Source of the DNA: Thauera humireducens
GTDB lineage: Bacteria; Pseudomonadota; Gammaproteobacteria; Burkholderiales; Rhodocyclaceae
Direction: 5' to 3'
Length of the DNA stretch: 64,000 nt
Assembly: GCF_001051995.2 (NCBI RefSeq)
Contig: NZ_CP014646.1
Coordinates: 620,001-684,000, forward strand
A program made the translations under genes and the position numbers. The number at the start of each line of letters is the position of its first letter. Positions within the stretch are counted from its first letter, which is position 1. The notes under the pieces were generated by a model, which was given only the letters and a program-made list of their open reading frames with translations, was not told where the DNA came from and searched no databases. Shown piece after piece: positions 20,180 to 26,533 of the stretch.

Positions 20180-22972
20180 TTAGTCCAAGGCCCTCTGCAA
20201 CACGCCGACCGGCGGGGCCCAGTCGTTGCCCGGCTGTTTCTTGCGCGTCACGAGCGTGAGCTGCGCCGGCGCGAACACGTTGGCGTTGTGGGTGACCGGC
20301 GTGGTGATCAGGTACTGCGCGCGGGTGGCGCGCAGGAAGGTGCCGACGCGGTCGATGTTGGCGACGTCGAGGTGAGCGAAGGGCTCGTCGATGAAGACGA
20401 AACCGCCGGGGCGGGCTTCGTCCATCAGCAGGCCGATCAGCAGGATCAGCGACTTCATGACCTGCTGGCCGCCCGAGGCTTCGCCGTCGTTCAGGCCCAC
20501 CGCACCCTTGCGGTCGAAATCGAAGCGGACCTCCAGCCCGGCCTGCGATAGCGAGACGTCGTCGTTCTCGAGGTGCGGCGTGGGGCAGTCCACGCTGACG
20601 TTGGCGAGGTCGCCCAGGGCCTTGAGGTTCTTCGCGTACTGGCGCACGGTGGCGCGCAGCTTGGCGATGTAGGCGGCGCGTGCGTTGTCGCTGTGGTTGC
20701 GCGCGGTGGCGCAGTAGCCCTGGCGGTCGAGGTAGTCGCGCTCGCGGCGGCCAACGTCGGCGGCGAGGCGGTCGCGCACGACCAGTACGGCCGGGTCGGT
20801 GATCCAGTCGCCCTCGTCGATGTGGCGGCGCAGGCGCTCGAGCTGGAGCCGGGCACCCCGGGCGTCGCCGTACTTTTCGGCGAGCAGGGCGAGTTCCCCG
20901 GCGTCCAGCCAGTGCGCCGGCATCCCCCGGCGGCGACGGCGCAGCGTCACGATGCGTTCGGCCTGCGTGCGGCGGCGCGGGCCGTGCTCGCGGGCGATGT
21001 CGGCCAGACGCAGCTCGATGGCCTTGAGCTCGCGCTGGCGGCGGTCGACCTCGATCTGGATGCCGCTGAGCTTCTCGTTGAGCGCGTCGAGCGTGCCGCG
21101 CATGTCGGTGCGCTCGGCGATCGCGGCCGTCAGCGCCTTGCGCGCCTGGGGCAGCTCCGAGTCGGCGGTGGCGTAGCGTTCGGCATTGGCCGCCAGCAGT
21201 TGCGCCGACTGCAGGCCGAGCATGCGCTGACGGATCGTGGTGACGCGCGCAGTGGCTTCGTCCAGCTTCGGGCGCAGGGCCTGGAGCTGCTTGTCGAGCG
21301 CGATGATTTCCTCTTGCAGCGCGGCGATGCGCGACTGGCGGGCGAGCTCGCCGAAGTGGAACTCCTGCGGCCGGCCGAGGTGGCGGGCGCCGCGGCGCTC
21401 GCGGTGGTAGCCGTCGCGGGTGATCCATTCCTGCTCGCGCGGCAGGTCGCGGGCGGCCTGGGCATCCTCGACGCGGCGGATGCGGTTGAGCAGGTCGGCC
21501 AGCCAGCGCGGCACCGGGCCGTTGAATTCGACGACTTCGGCCAGGCTCATCGGGCGCGGCGGCGGGGCGGGCTCGCGCTCGGGCACGATGAAGTGGCGGA
21601 AGCGCTCGCGCTCGCCCAACGCCCAGGCGGCGTGGCGGTCGGCCTCGCGCTCGAGCAGGATCAGGTGACGGTAGGGGCGCAGGATGGCCTCGAGCGCCGC
21701 CTGCCAGGCCGGATCGGTGATCTCGACGACCTCGGCCAGGCTCTGGTGGGCGATGCCCTCGGCGCTGAGCTTGACGCGGAAGCGCGACACCTCGGCGTCG
21801 CCCGGCGGGCCGCTGCGGTTGCGTTCGCTGCGCAGGGTCTCGGTGCGGTCCTCGAAGGCGGCGACGAGCTCGCGTTCCCGGGCGCGCAGGCGGGCGCGCT
21901 CGGCGTCGGCCTCCTCGTGTTCCTTCTCCAGCGCCACCGCGTCGGCACCGTGCTCGGTGGCGAGCTGGGCGCGCAGGGCGTCGCGCTCGGCCAGCAGCTT
22001 CTCGAGGTCGCGCACGCGGTCGTGGGCAGCCAGATAGCGCTGCTCGGTGGCGGTGTCGCCCTCCTTCAGGCGCTTGCGTTCGGCGCTGGCGGCGTCCTGT
22101 TCGGCGCGCACGGCGTCGAGCCGCAGACGGGCCTCGCGCTGCTCCGCGATCCTGTCGATGCGTTCGCGGCTGACGCGGCGCAATGCGTCGCGCTCGTCGG
22201 CGATCTCGCGCGCCAGCTCGGCGATCTCGAGCCGCGGCACGATCTCCGCCTGCAGGGCCTGGGCTTCGTCGGCGAGCTGCTTCCATTCGAGGAAGCGGTT
22301 GGCCTCGGCCTTCTTTTCCTCGGCCTGGGTCTTCAGGCGGTCGAGATCGATGCCGAGTTCGCCCAGCTCGCGCTCGGCGTTCTTCTGCTCCTCCCGCGCG
22401 GCCTGGTAGTTGTCCAGCACCTCCTTGTCGCCGAAGACATCGAACACCAGCTCGAGCAGGGCCTTGGGCGAGTACTCGCACAGCTTGTCGGTGTCGCCCT
22501 GTTCCAGCGCCAGCACCTTGGTGATGGCCGGGGTCAGGCCGCCCCAGGCGAGGCGGTTCTGGTAGTCGCGCAGGCCGATCCAGTCGTTGTTGGCCTCGAG
22601 CGCCTCGATGTCCTGGTTGCCGTCGACGATGGCGTAATCGCGGATCCAGTCGCCGCCGGCCTTGCGGATGCGGCAGGCGAGCGTCACTTCGTCCGACAGG
22701 CAGGGGAAGAACGGGCGCTTGCCGGTGCTGCCGGGCACGTTGGCCACGATGGCGCGGATCCACGCGAAGCTGCGGTCGGCGCGGCGCACGTAGCGGCGGA
22801 AGTCGCGCTTGCCCGAGCAGCGCAGCGCGAACAGCGTGCGCAGGGCGTCGAGCAGGGTGGTCTTGCCCGAGCCGTTGGGGCCGACGATGGTGATGATCTG
22901 GGCGTCCAGCGGCAGCGAGAAGCGGCGCCAGAAGTCCCAGTGCACGAGTTCGAGCGTCTTGATATGGAACAT
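20180..22972 (-). CDS. SMC/condensin-like ATPase (MksB/JetC-like)
   Basis: This 930-residue protein has SMC architecture. The head has Walker A GPNGSGKTT (residues 31-39) at the N-terminus; the signature EASGGQQ (S833) and Walker B FVFIDEPFAHLD (D862/E863) are at the C-terminus. Between them two charged coiled-coil arms (about 170-380 and 500-800) flank a central globular segment starting near residue 385 (RFRVKLSAEGIAHQSLAEVV) that resembles a hinge. The size is between RecF-like and full SMC proteins and matches MksB/JetC. It is the third gene of an operon, its ATG overlapping the preceding stop (TGATG). Likely role: DNA loop extrusion in chromosome organisation or in Wadjet-like plasmid defence. 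MksB assignment is by architecture, not by search. Confidence 0.72.
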   Translation of the reverse strand: MFHIKTLELVHWDFWRRFSLPLDAQIITIVGPNGSGKTTLLDALRTLFALRCSGKRDFRRYVRRADRSFAWIRAIVANVPGSTGKRPFFPCLSDEVTLACRIRKAGGDWIRDYAIVDGNQDIEALEANNDWIGLRDYQNRLAWGGLTPAITKVLALEQGDTDKLCEYSPKALLELVFDVFGDKEVLDNYQAAREEQKNAERELGELGIDLDRLKTQAEEKKAEANRFLEWKQLADEAQALQAEIVPRLEIAELAREIADERDALRRVSRERIDRIAEQREARLRLDAVRAEQDAASAERKRLKEGDTATEQRYLAAHDRVRDLEKLLAERDALRAQLATEHGADAVALEKEHEEADAERARLRARERELVAAFEDRTETLRSERNRSGPPGDAEVSRFRVKLSAEGIAHQSLAEVVEITDPAWQAALEAILRPYRHLILLEREADRHAAWALGERERFRHFIVPEREPAPPPRPMSLAEVVEFNGPVPRWLADLLNRIRRVEDAQAARDLPREQEWITRDGYHRERRGARHLGRPQEFHFGELARQSRIAALQEEIIALDKQLQALRPKLDEATARVTTIRQRMLGLQSAQLLAANAERYATADSELPQARKALTAAIAERTDMRGTLDALNEKLSGIQIEVDRRQRELKAIELRLADIAREHGPRRRTQAERIVTLRRRRRGMPAHWLDAGELALLAEKYGDARGARLQLERLRRHIDEGDWITDPAVLVVRDRLAADVGRRERDYLDRQGYCATARNHSDNARAAYIAKLRATVRQYAKNLKALGDLANVSVDCPTPHLENDDVSLSQAGLEVRFDFDRKGAVGLNDGEASGGQQVMKSLILLIGLLMDEARPGGFVFIDEPFAHLDVANIDRVGTFLRATRAQYLITTPVTHNANVFAPAQLTLVTRKKQPGNDWAPPVGVLQRALD

Positions 22973-23688
22973 CAGCGGTTGTCTCCGGCGTCGTCGTTAG
23001 TCCCGTCCTCGTCGGGCAGAATGTCCGCCACCTCGAAGGCATTGGTTTCGGGCATGGCATGGCCGGCGGCGGCGAGCACTTCGCCCAGCGTGCCGTGGAT
23101 GATGCGGTCGGCCATCACGCGGTAGTCGAGCGCCACGTCGAGCAGCGGCCCTTCGCTGATGACACCGTTGCGGCGCTCGATGAAGCCCAGCCTCGCGAGC
23201 TTGCCGAGCGCGATGGTCATCTTGGTCTTGCCGCCCAGGCGCGGACCGAAGTCGGCTACCAGCGAGCTCTCGGCCAGGCTGCCGGAGACGCTGTCGCCGT
23301 GGGCGACGGGCTTGTCGCCGCCGAACATGTCGGTCTGGCCGTCGTCGATCAGTTCGCGCCGCGTGACCTGGCGCTCGCGCTTGGGTAGCACGACCAGCGA
23401 CCAGATCACCACCAGCAGCGCGATCTCGTCGCGCGCCAGGCCGAGGTTGCTGGCGGCGTACTCGCGGCCGGCACCGAACACGGGTTCGGCCATCTCGGCC
23501 TGCAGTGCGACACCGACGTGGGCGGCGTAGGGGTTGTCGAGCAGTTGCAGGCCGACGTCGGCCAGCCGGCGGTCGAGCTCGAGGCGGAAGGTCTCGTCGA
23601 CCAGTGCGCGCCGCACCATGCGGTCGCTGCGCGGCAGCCAGCGCTGCGCGAGCAGGCGCGCGGTGAGCGTCTTCAGTTCATGTTCCAT
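22972..23688 (-). CDS. SMC-complex accessory subunit (MksE/JetB-like)
   Basis: This 238-residue protein lies between a kleisin-like gene and an SMC-like ATPase gene and is translationally coupled to the latter. It is rich in winged-helix-like segments (DEIALLVVIWSLVVLPKRERQVTRREL; TKMTIALGKLARLGFIERRNGVISEGPLLDVALDYR). MukE/MksE/JetB subunits are tandem winged-helix proteins of about this size that bind the kleisin. Assignment rests on size, fold pattern and operon position. The C-terminal tail is acidic (DILPDEDGTNDDAGDN). Confidence 0.6.
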   Translation of the reverse strand: MEHELKTLTARLLAQRWLPRSDRMVRRALVDETFRLELDRRLADVGLQLLDNPYAAHVGVALQAEMAEPVFGAGREYAASNLGLARDEIALLVVIWSLVVLPKRERQVTRRELIDDGQTDMFGGDKPVAHGDSVSGSLAESSLVADFGPRLGGKTKMTIALGKLARLGFIERRNGVISEGPLLDVALDYRVMADRIIHGTLGEVLAAAGHAMPETNAFEVADILPDEDGTNDDAGDNR

Positions 23689-23699
23689 GGGCGCACCGT

Positions 23700-24980
23700 T
23701 CAGGATTGGGCGGGCAGGGCGGTCGCACGCGGGACCACCTCGCCGGCGTTGATGGCAGCGATCTCGTCTTCGCCGACCGGCACCAGCTCGTCGCCGAAGC
23801 GCACGTCGAGCGGCAGACGCATGAAGGCGCCGATCGGGCCGTCGACCGGACTGGCGTCCTCGCCGTCGGCCAGCAGCGCGAGCAGCGACAGGCGGTAGCT
23901 GGCCAGCGCAAAGCCGCCGCCCGCGATGACGTGGTGCAGGGGGCGCGGTTCCGGCAGGGACTCGAGACGATGGGTGAAGTGCTCGAGCATCGCCAGGTCT
24001 TCGGCGTCGGGTGCGGTGCCGACGGGCGAGCTGTCCGGTGGCGGCAGCGTGGCGTCGACCTCGCCGCGCACCTTGTCGTCGCCGAGCGCGGTCTCGGCGC
24101 GGTCCAGCAGTTCGTGGCCGCCGGCCAGCAGCGGCAGGTCCGGCACCGCCGCCAGCCCGCCTTCGGCAAAGCTTGCCAGCATGGCGATGTCGAGCCGGCG
24201 CAGCCAGGCGGCAACGTCCGACGACGAGATGCCCGAGCCGCCCAGCGTCACGCGCTGCGCTTCGATCTTGTTCAGTGCGCGCTGGAAGGCGGCATCCACG
24301 CGCGCCAGCCGCGACTGCGCGAGGCCGATGCGCTGTGCGATGCGGGCGATGTCGAAGTCGACCTCGGGATCGGCGAGCAGCTTGTTGAGGATGTCGGTGC
24401 CGCGCTCGAGCCAGCGCCCGTTGGCCGACAGGCGGCGACGGGCGTCGAGGATGCGGAATTCGGAACCGGAGGCGATGGCTTCCTCGAAGTGCCAGGTGAG
24501 GTCGTTGAGCTTGGACAGCAGGTGGCCGAGCGATTCGGCGGTGACGCCGCCCACGGCCTGCAGGCCGGCGAGCTGGGCGGTGAGGAAGCCGAGCTCGGCA
24601 TCCTCTTCCTCGCCGAAGCGCAGCAGCATGGCGATGGCGGCCACCGCGTTGCGGCCGATGTCGGAGAGGTGGTACTGCCCGTCTTCGCCGATGGCGAGCA
24701 GGGCGTTGTCGCGCAGGCGCTTGAGTACGGTTTCGAGCTTGACCGGATCGAGATAGGTGAAGCGCGCGCGCAGGGCGTCCGGCGACCAGCGTGGGGCCTC
24801 GGCTTCACGGCCGATCTCGCGCAGCACGAGCAGGCGCATGAGGACTTCGGCCTCGGTGCCGCGGAAGAGCGTGATGAAGGCGTCGAGCAGCGGCCGTGCA
24901 CTGTTCAGCGCCGCGAGTTCCGGCACTTCGTCGGCATCGACGCCGGGTGCGAGAAAGTCCGACAGGAACGGTTCAGTCAT
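23700..24980 (-). CDS. kleisin-like subunit of SMC complex (MksF/JetA-like)
   Basis: The first gene of the SMC-like operon encodes a 426-residue soluble, mostly helical protein. The N-terminal part (about 35-115) looks like a winged-helix domain (LMRLLVLREIGREAEAPRWSPDALRARFTYLDPVKLETVLKRLRDNALLA); a helical middle (about 150-290) contains LDARRRLSANGRWLERGTDILNKLL. Position upstream of MksE-like and SMC-like genes and the winged-helix start are as expected for MukF/MksF/JetA kleisins. No clear RBS is visible before ATG 24980. The gene after the ATPase is a PhnD-type binding protein, not a TOPRIM nuclease, so a JetD/MksG partner is absent here. Confidence 0.6.
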   Translation of the reverse strand: MTEPFLSDFLAPGVDADEVPELAALNSARPLLDAFITLFRGTEAEVLMRLLVLREIGREAEAPRWSPDALRARFTYLDPVKLETVLKRLRDNALLAIGEDGQYHLSDIGRNAVAAIAMLLRFGEEEDAELGFLTAQLAGLQAVGGVTAESLGHLLSKLNDLTWHFEEAIASGSEFRILDARRRLSANGRWLERGTDILNKLLADPEVDFDIARIAQRIGLAQSRLARVDAAFQRALNKIEAQRVTLGGSGISSSDVAAWLRRLDIAMLASFAEGGLAAVPDLPLLAGGHELLDRAETALGDDKVRGEVDATLPPPDSSPVGTAPDAEDLAMLEHFTHRLESLPEPRPLHHVIAGGGFALASYRLSLLALLADGEDASPVDGPIGAFMRLPLDVRFGDELVPVGEDEIAAINAGEVVPRATALPAQS

Positions 24981-25122
24981 CGATTCTGGGAGCGCTGCAA
25001 AGTCGGGTTGAGTCGGTTCGGTGGAGCTTGCCGGTGGTCGGAATCAAACCAGGCGGCGACGGCGGCTGGTTCGACCTCGTCGTTGTTCTTCAGCCTATTC
25101 AGCCTCGGTTGCCGGAGGACGT

Positions 25123-25196
25123 ACGGGGTGTTTGTGGAGCCGGCGAGGACTGTCCGACCGAAGCGAGTTCCGCAGCCGGCGGAACAAATACCCCGT
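25123..25196 (+). repeat. structured intergenic repeat, copy 1
   Basis: This 74-base element folds into one long imperfect hairpin. P1 is a 13-bp outer helix (25123-25135 with 25184-25196, one G-T wobble). A symmetric GGA/GGA internal loop follows (25136-25138, 25181-25183), then P2 GCCGGC/GCCGGC (39-44 with 75-80 in the last two digits), then a 30-base apical part beginning GAGGACTGTC and ending CGAGTTCCGCA. A second copy in opposite orientation keeps the loops but changes both sides of the helices. Confidence 0.8.
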
Positions 25197-25269
25197 GCGT
25201 CCGACCGGGGCGGCGCGGCCGATGCAGTTCGAAAGAACAGTGGGGCCGAAGCCGTGGTGCAAGAACCGG

Positions 25270-25364
25270 CTTGACTGGGGCACTTGTTCCGAAGGCTGCG
25301 GAACTCGCCTGCGCTGCGCTTGGCTCAGACAGTCCTCGCCTTCTCCACAAGTGCCCCAGCCAAG
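25270..25364 (-). repeat. structured intergenic repeat, copy 2 (inverted)
   Basis: Read on the minus strand, this 95-base element has the same plan as copy 1: P1 of 18 positions with one mismatch (25270-25287 with 25347-25364), the same GGA/GGA internal loop, and P2 GAAGGC/GCCTTC (25338-25343 with 25291-25296). The apical part begins GAGGACTGTC and ends CGAGTTCCGCA, with an 11-base insert in the middle. P1 and P2 differ from copy 1 by paired changes, so the helices rather than the sequence are conserved. Confidence 0.8.
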
Positions 25365-25389
25365 CCTCAGGTTGTTCCTGGCTCAACGG

Positions 25390-25406
25390 CCGACGCAAGG
25401 CGTCGG
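25390..25406 (-). terminator. possible terminator hairpin after prfB
   Basis: CCGACGC and GCGTCGG (7 bp) flank a 3-base loop, 22 bases after the prfB stop in the direction of transcription. No T-run follows, so function as an intrinsic terminator is uncertain. Confidence 0.35.
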
Positions 25407-25428
25407 TCGCGAAACGAGGGCGGGCGTC

Positions 25429-26533
25429 TTAAACGCCCTGTTTCAGACTCGCCGCAATGAAGTCATCCAGGTCGCCATCCAGCACCGCCTGCGTGTTGCC
25501 CACTTCGTAGTTTGTGCGCAGATCCTTGATGCGGGACTGGTCCAGCACGTAGCTGCGGATCTGGTGGCCCCAGCCGATGTCGCTCTTGCTGTCTTCAAGC
25601 TTCTGCTGCTCGGACTGGCGCTTGCGCAGTTCCAGCTCGTACAGCCGCGCCTTCAGCATCGACATGGCCTCGGCCTTGTTCTTGTGCTGCGAACGGTCGT
25701 TCTGGCATTGCACGACGATGCCGGTCGGCTCGTGCGTGATCCGCACCGCCGAGTCGGTCTTGTTGATGTGCTGGCCGCCCGCGCCGGAGGCACGGTAGGT
25801 GTCGATGCGCAGGTCGGCCGGGTTGATCTCGATCTCGATCGAGTCGTCCACTTCCGGATACACGAACACCGAGGTGAAGCTGGTGTGGCGGCGGGCGTTG
25901 GAGTCGAACGGCGACTTGCGCACCAGACGGTGAATGCCGGTCTCGGTGCGCAGATAGCCGTAGGCGTACTCGCCGCTGACCTTGATCGTGCAGTTCTTGA
26001 TGCCTGCGACTTCGCCCTCGGTCTCTTCCATCAGCTCGACACCGAAGCCCTTCTTCTCGCTGTAGCGCAGGTACATGCGTTCGAGCATGCCCGCCCAGTC
26101 CTGCGCTTCGGTGCCGCCGGCGCCGGCCTGGATTTCGATGAAGCAGTTGTTCGGGTCCATGGGATTGCTGAACATGCGGCGGAACTCGAGCCTCTCGACT
26201 TCCGCTTCCAGTCCTTCGAGGTCGGACTCGACGGCTTCGAAGGTATCGTCGTCGTCCTCGGCTTCGGCCAGCTCGTACAGATCCTTGAGGTCACGCGATT
26301 GCGCGTCGATCGTCTGCAGCGTCAGCACAACGTCCTCGAGCTGGCGCTTCTCCTTGCCGAGTTCCTGCGCGCGCTCGGCGTTGTTCCAGACGGCCGGGTC
26401 TTCCAGTGCGCGATTGACCTCTTCGAGCTTCGATGCTTTCACATCGTAGTCAAAGATACCTCCGGAGTTCCCGACCGCGGGCGGCGAGGTCGGCGAGTTT
26501 TTCGGCGATGGCGTTCTGGCGTTCGGCTTCCAT
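25429..26533 (-). CDS. prfB: peptide chain release factor 2 (programmed +1 frameshift)
   Basis: RF2 ends translation at UGA and UAA. Translation starts at ATG 26533 ([16 protein letters not shown]), runs 27 codons to an in-frame TGA at 26450-26452, and continues in the +1 frame as [11 protein letters not shown] to 25429, giving about 367 residues, the normal length. The peptide-anticodon motif SPF ([11 protein letters not shown]) and the catalytic GGQ (residues 252-254) are present. The shift makes RF2 autoregulatory: when RF2 is scarce the ribosome pauses at UGA and shifts. An automatic caller would lose the first exon-like part and start at 26442. Confidence 0.95.
26450..26463 (-). promoter_or_regulatory. 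RF2 programmed frameshift signal
   Basis: Reading toward lower coordinates, an internal Shine-Dalgarno GGAGGT (26458-26463) is followed after two bases by the slippery CTT-TGA-C (26449-26455). Spacing and sequence match the conserved RF2 frameshift site. The following codons GACTAC restore the RF2 frame. Confidence 0.94.

Follow-up and report, generated by a model that had tools for sequence, protein, structure and literature searches.

The gap between prfB and the next open reading frame (ORF) of Thauera humireducens holds two long hairpins in opposite orientation, and the question is what kind of element they represent, on which strand they are kept and what might recognise them. They lie within 64,000 nucleotides of contig NZ_CP014646.1 (hereafter the window), and sequence, alignment and folds confirm that the structured inverted repeat, first noticed in a sequence-only reading, is real (Table 1). 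The architecture described there is borne out, namely an outer helix, a symmetric 3x3 GGA/GGA internal loop and a second helix that differs between the copies by paired changes (GCCGGC/GCCGGC against GAAGGC/GCCTTC), and the apical segment from GAGGACTGTC through CGAGTTCCGCA is present in both. The interval proposed, 25123-25364, located the pair properly but was too short, the folded helices running further (84 nt paired in copy 1 and 99 nt in copy 2). Similarly, the 11-base insert is there, but the unpaired parts are not otherwise identical, as the aligned apical parts carry a few substitutions. Folded as RNA on their own strands, copies 1 and 2 gave z-scores of -6.1 and -7.1, with 0 of 200 shuffles as stable, against -2.7 and -7.1 for the reverse complements. 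Since the value for copy 2 is equal on both strands, folding energy alone gives no strand for it.

Table 1. Features of the hairpin pair and its surroundings (window coordinates unless the contig is named).
Feature	Position	Strand	Basis
Copy 1, hairpin element (outer helix, 3x3 loop, inner helix, core)	25118..25201	+	fold
Copy 1, match to covariance model R1	G000:C1:645110-645208 = window 25110-25208	+	
Copy 1, apical core GAGGACTGTCCGACCGAAGCGAGTTCCGCA	25145..25174	+	sequence and exact core pattern
Copy 1, symmetric internal loop, 5' side (GGA)	25136..25138	+	sequence, fold, arm pairing
Copy 1, symmetric internal loop, 3' side (GGA)	25181..25183	+	sequence, fold, arm pairing
Spacer separating the inverted copies	25202..25267	.	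low conservation among species; orthologous G002 region strongly different (by eye)
Copy 2, hairpin element, inverted	25268..25366	-	fold
Copy 2, match to covariance model R1	G000:C1:645263-645372 = window 25263-25372	-	
Copy 2, apical core, apical hairpin 11 bases longer	25297..25337	-	sequence, alignment, core pattern
prfB (PCRF and RF-1 domains)	25429-26442	minus	
ORF on the other side of the hairpin pair	starting at 24980	minus, same strand as prfB	

Domain matches also agree with the neighbours named at the outset, prfB (PCRF, RF-1) and an operon with an SMC_N protein. The latter has three genes (20180-24980, minus strand) and is probably a condensin or Wadjet-like set. Two of its products, of 426 and 238 aa, match nothing in Pfam or PADLOC, and the third is an SMC_N protein of 930 aa with matches to JetC models (E 3.7e-27). 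Directly after the prfB stop there is a small hairpin, CCGACGC-AAG-GCGTCGG (25389-25408), with a weak CRISPR-DR20 match (E 3.5), which is perhaps a terminator-like hairpin of prfB.

The pair belongs to a repeat family with many copies, as had been anticipated. The exact core pattern occurs 21 times in the 4.17 Mb genome and the reversed pattern not once, and the covariance model built on these 21 exact-core copies (R1) finds 25 copies at 62-108 bits, with 150 of 4028 candidates scored. Among 28 congeneric genomes, the model has at least one match in 25, from 1 to at least 64 each, and none in three; these high counts are lower bounds, with up to 65 candidates scored per genome, and match counts can slightly exceed copy counts, a few matches being the same palindrome read from the other strand. 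The family is intergenic and mostly arranged in inverted pairs. Eight such pairs account for 16 of the 25 copies of this genome, direct pairs being absent, and 44 of 46 neighbouring pairs no more than 600 bp apart were inverted in the loci compared. Copies at different sites diverge widely, with a median edit distance of 26 over about 97 letters.

Despite this divergence the arms remain paired. In the 21 copies of the genome, 24 of 33 pairs show two-sided change against a shuffled mean of 13.8, which bears out the predicted preference for paired changes, and the covariation score is 0.496, compared to 0.173 when shuffled and at most 0.101 for slid structures; none of 500 shuffles reached any of the five covariation measures. 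The five pairs of the core helix are invariant in these copies and hence uninformative, but in G050 and G059 some cores, with GAGCACTG...GAGTTGCGC, have a G-C pair of this helix replaced by C-G. In 134 distinct copies from the genus the arms pair step for step over about 31 steps, with steps 7-9 unpaired, and all four Watson-Crick pairs are found at 18 of 28 stem positions and at least three at 23 of 28. These 134 copies, and the set of 133 used below, are only the core-expression matches from several hundred genus hits, and most sets were gathered with that expression, so the constancy of the core is partly built in; altered cores were also recovered by the covariance model.

The mismatches left in the arms indicate which strand is constrained. 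In the 134 genus copies there were 3185 Watson-Crick, 219 G.T, 29 A.C and 185 other cells, counted over the 27 steps at which Watson-Crick pairs exceed 60%; these are cell counts, with many cells inherited together. Step 23 fell below this limit and was excluded (53 G.T and 0 A.C of 134), steps 20-24 being rich in wobbles. The excess is similar in both orientations (111 G.T against 12 A.C, and 108 against 17), and it is seen in a thinned set of 53 well-separated copies of the 134 (71 against 14), without the wobble-rich columns (28 against 11, p 0.009), outside the genus (25 against 6 in 35 elements; 61 against 31 in 91 elements from 80 of at least 120 loci) and in 13 elements with a shorter tip (7 against 0). 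As G.T on one strand is A.C on the other, the two should be equally frequent if the constraint acted on double-stranded DNA or a cruciform, or if mutational repair of palindromes were at work. We read these counts as selection acting on the GAGGACTG strand as a single strand, either RNA or DNA.

Template switching is a known process in palindromes, and working inside these hairpins without any selection it could have produced the paired changes by mutation only. This would suit sites where matched change is plentiful, an example being copy 2 when this genome is compared with G002 (judged by eye). However, it predicts as many A.C as G.T cells, against the 219 and 29 observed, and leaves unexplained both the common core and the conservation of the elements above their flanks, and we consider it highly improbable. 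That conservation was measured on copies of this genome matched to orthologs in G002, G006 and G009. From the 31 rows obtained 28 were used, leaving out one whose ortholog has no core and two whose own copies misfit the core expression. Element identity is 0.925, 0.919 and 0.911 in the three genomes respectively, against 0.779, 0.658 and 0.689 in the 60-bp flanks, while DNA 250-1200 bp away, mostly coding, has 0.924, 0.884 and 0.883. Change is absent from 662 of the 784 orthologous stem positions and two-sided at 37 (26 from one Watson-Crick pair to another), and the 85 positions with one-sided change comprise 45 WC/GT, 3 WC/AC, 30 WC/other and 7 remaining cases, where template switching again predicts equal numbers for the first two. 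Core letters changed at 8 of 672 positions, a number biased low because copies were chosen by the core expression. Identity above that of the flanks indicates that the copies are inherited and constrained.

Where genes were called by codon composition around the 25 loci of this genome, 18 copies lie in tandem, 7 in convergent and none in divergent contexts, and 14 are no more than 60 bp from the stop of a called gene, while several others come second in a pair. The copies in tandem contexts divide into nine sense and nine antisense, which gives no hint of where the single strand would arise. No functional theme was found in the neighbours, 20 flanking ORFs of which 19 have Pfam matches of metabolic and housekeeping types. 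Nor does Rfam have anything at gathering score over the element of the window (searched up to E 10; best overlapping E 0.85, far below gathering), or at the elements of 19 distant and 14 viral loci. MIR1858 and CRISPR-DR20, both matched in the window, were rejected as far below gathering score. These data bear on a possible though doubtful alternative, that the hairpin is an RNA element acting at transcript level and protecting or ending mRNAs, either through its structure in the 3' UTR or as a site of RNA-protein contact. The one-strand G.T excess with its wobble-rich steps, the absence of copies from divergent spaces, the closeness to stops and the strong RNA fold would all agree with it, and Di Nocera et al., where they discuss REPs, see in GT pairing and a 3' location an indication that these act as RNA (PMC3733652). 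The equal split between sense and antisense, the arrangement in inverted pairs, the neighbours without common theme and the lack of an Rfam match speak against it.

The suggestion that the motif might be a REP-like mobile element holds in part, as it is indeed an intergenic inverted-pair repeat family with paired changes, but neither a link to RAYT transposases nor current mobility is borne out. At the prfB site, 26 loci including that of the window display empty, single, paired and eroded states. The gap is only 14-29 bases as cut in L139, L140, L142, L145, L152, L156 and L157; G005 and G003 have single copies in opposite orientations, G002 has a pair as here, G023 has one, and G012 has by eye an apparent outer stem without core. 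In other loci gene order or length is different, and no target duplication was seen. Among 133 sampled genus copies, the closest from the same genome differ at 6 of about 97 letters, save for identical copies in G006 that lie within a local duplication; orthologous copies are common to several species. Some nearly identical copies from different species in the same sample have flanks at or near background similarity, and they may be orthologs with worn flanks or copies that moved, a choice decided for the 31 matched rows above. As separate observations, a Barnesiella MAG carries near-identical copies on two contigs (L188 and L217) that remain similar past the hairpin, and two copies in a Nitrospira MAG (L182 and L225) differ in their arms and have a stretch in common downstream of the hairpin. 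These near-copies are the best hint of fairly recent copying.

A search for RAYT genes, which the sequence-only reading had proposed, found no Y1_Tnp (PF01797) match in this genome (G000), in G001 (at least 64 element hits) or in G003 (at least 46). Genus genomes without such a gene have on average no fewer copies, the mean being 12 hits in the 17 genomes with Y1_Tnp and 19 in the 12 without, and with no positive association over these 29 genomes RAYT was rejected as the mobiliser. In 44 hosts reached through other loci, of unstated genome completeness, Y1_Tnp was found in 25 and not in 19. That these are ordinary REPs or REPINs mobilised by a RAYT since lost from the present genome appears unlikely. 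The inverted pairs and intergenic positions would fit this, as would the 25 other hosts that do have the gene, a GTAG near the foot in 32 of 133 genus copies (1 of 133 in the control, marking a subtype only) and the presence of elements at E<1e-15 in 4 of 30 Y1_Tnp loci of the genus (6 hits). The missing genes and the hit counts tell against it, and in L113, L121 and L123 RAYT-type genes carry their own GGGGTCAGGTCTTTCATT repeats, with the element among these repeats in a TIRtron-like arrangement. In 11 of 31 genus pairs one member is GTAG-footed, its mate always having the other label; pairs with two GTAG members never occur.

Retroelement-like spread, in which an RNA would be copied by a host reverse transcriptase, seems extremely improbable. 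A constraint on one strand, independent of orientation, would fit an RNA intermediate as it would one of single-stranded DNA, but RVT_1 was absent from 19 of 40 genomes and present in 21, and none was found in G001, with its 64 or more hits, or in G013, G015 and G025; it was accordingly rejected as a general factor. The 23S rRNA IVS protein (PF05635) had no match in this genome or in the control genomes. When ORFs lying up to 3 kb from the elements were clustered over 80 loci, no general cis-linked partner emerged, the clusters being ABC-transporter-like in 7 of the 80 loci, kinase in 5 and regulator types in 3, with 2-3 loci for a few further families. Other clusters sat at distance 0, the one with most members listed spanning 21 loci, and were taken by their place and look as translations across the repeat. 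The ORFs between widely spaced inverted copies appear mutually unrelated by eye, and no recognising factor was found among the candidates searched.

The part of the element that recurs is its tip. It is composed of a GA/GCA loop, a GGACT/AGTTCC stem, a GTYYGA loop and a small apical hairpin often capped by C(GNA)G, and its sequence is nearly fixed, whereas that of the outer stem is free yet paired. Exact matches to the apical core GAGGACTGTYYGAG...GAGTTCCGCAG come from many phyla, their paired outer stems being unrelated, and at least 120 stretches in GTDB species genomes match the core pattern. Cross-phylum statistics refer to 80 of these 120 or more loci, and hosts among the 80 matches listed include Beta- and Gammaproteobacteria, Nitrospira, Myxococcota, Spirochaetes, Lachnospiraceae, Coriobacteriia, Barnesiella, Gastranaerophilales and several candidate phyla, where individual records may be mis-binned MAG contigs. 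By our own estimate, the number of such matches expected by chance is well below one. The exact core is patchy: among 398 genomes sampled across the phylum it occurs in 2, the present genome included, and the reversed pattern in none. Outer stems are lineage-specific, AT-rich in several loci of Lachnospiraceae and candidate phyla. Genomes of the Dechloromonas type have units of about 420 bp in which a hairpin is turned towards a second, different one, accompanied by additional inverted parts. A tip so invariant across phyla suggests, by comparison of sequences, that it may be recognised by some factor.

The C(GNA)G cap is found in 57 of 100 cross-phylum cores, 25 of 34 from the genus and 13 of 22 from this genome, but it is not universal (12 of 34 cores from other families of the order). 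GNA loops form exceptionally stable DNA mini-hairpins according to the account of them in PMC4686876, on which the argument from stability rests, since the folding parameter sets as run do not separate triloops. Such caps would lean towards DNA, and the wobble-rich steps towards RNA.

In viral contigs the exact core occurs in one stretch and the shorter tip CTGTYYGAGCGNAGCGAGTT in 14, mostly with paired arms. Neither phage records nor E. coli matched a 36-base query, and the 99-base element had no match in plasmids, where the 36-base query gave two partial matches, to Ilyobacter and Aureibacter replicons bearing a shorter form of the tip with related letters; the Ilyobacter copy, folded as DNA, gave no significant score (z -1.0). 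We also observed partner hairpins at L172, L230, L233, L237, L239, L434 and L448. One of the kind CTTTTCTTTGGNTACTTTCTTTTGGCGAAGCAAAAGAAAGT adjoins the element in Betaproteobacteria, and hairpins like it stand next to the short tip of Ilyobacter and of a viral contig. By a loose motif, such a partner follows 21 of 97 cores, and three plasmid records match it. In L448 there is, besides, a match to sRNA-Xcc1 (RF02221, positions 555-640) about 3.4 kb from the short-tip element of the same viral contig.

It was stated from the start that no named family could be recognised, and this agrees with the empty Rfam result and with open PMC full text, where letter or topic searches found no report of the repeat, the letter searches returning short-word matches such as one 12-base word in wheat papers. 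Among known families the element most resembles GTAG-class REPs, BIMEs and REPINs, which in the sections describing them are also intergenic palindromes in tandem and convergent spaces and inverted doublets (PMC2817692, PMC3116915, PMC3733652, PMC8266576), with G.T pairing, several copies per genome and the GTAG foot that a subset has here. Unlike the REPs characterised in PMC3733652, palindromes of 20-40 bp with stems of 6-13 bp, it has about 85-110 nt, a stem of about 31 steps and three internal loops. It also differs from the REPs and REPINs of these sections in a tip that is exact across phyla, in copies that are fewer and more diverged and in the absence of a Y1/RAYT match in the genome. 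The GT(A/G)G head at the 5' foot is absent from the window copies. The element thus works like a REP/REPIN palindrome yet fails the defining tests, RAYT and, in the window copies, the GTAG head.

CGTC REPs, as that source presents them, likewise occur in several phyla, mostly as head-to-head dimers with no transposase known, but they have stems of 8-9 bp, loops of 4-5 bases and a CGTC end motif (PMC3733652), with no sequence resemblance to the element by eye. In TIRtrons, as described there, a Y1 gene lies between terminal inverted repeats that contain GGGGWSAS (PMC3733652). TIRtron-like genes occur in the same genus, sometimes within about 1 kb of the element, and their GGGGTCAGGTCTTTCATT repeat is like the TIR motif given by Di Nocera et al. 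(PMC3733652) and unlike the element hairpin. The MITE-like repeats RU-1 to RU-3, of about 100-170 bp in their description (PMC2759123), are comparable in size and also intergenic; the element differs from them in that its outer ends are free in sequence and no parent transposon was found.

The explanation that we favour, with about even confidence, is a large, old and vertically kept REP-like superfamily whose hairpin is recognised as a single strand by a putative factor. On this view the palindromes are non-autonomous and REP/REPIN-like, the window carries one of the sites of their family, and each arm folds, as the single GAGGACTG strand, into the long hairpin. Its tip would be read by a trans-acting single-strand-binding factor, probably other than a Y1/RAYT transposase or an RVT_1 reverse transcriptase, as neither was detectable in several hosts. 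An ancient spread through a single-stranded intermediate may have inserted the palindromes in spaces downstream of genes, and vertical inheritance would have followed, with the fold of every copy under purifying selection. We infer recognition by a factor, past single-strand mobility and DNA rather than RNA, and provisionally place recognition of single-stranded DNA first and a role in RNA second.

Bacterial interspersed palindromes are mostly known as lineage-specific, with the GTAG class tied to RAYT, whereas the present tip, near-fixed and borne on free, covarying stems, is found across phyla, without detectable RAYT in several hosts. Single copies are better conserved than their flanks. 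Together these findings make REP-like persistence without a transposase directly testable, and the tip provides a defined bait for finding the recognising protein. More tentatively, the tip GAGGACTGTYYGAG...GAGTTCCGCAG, or more broadly CTGTYYGAGC-GNA-GCGAGTT, might be a bacteria-wide single-strand module read by one conserved protein family, with the stems supplied by each lineage. If true, interspersed palindromes would include a new class that does not depend on RAYT and has a host role under selection.
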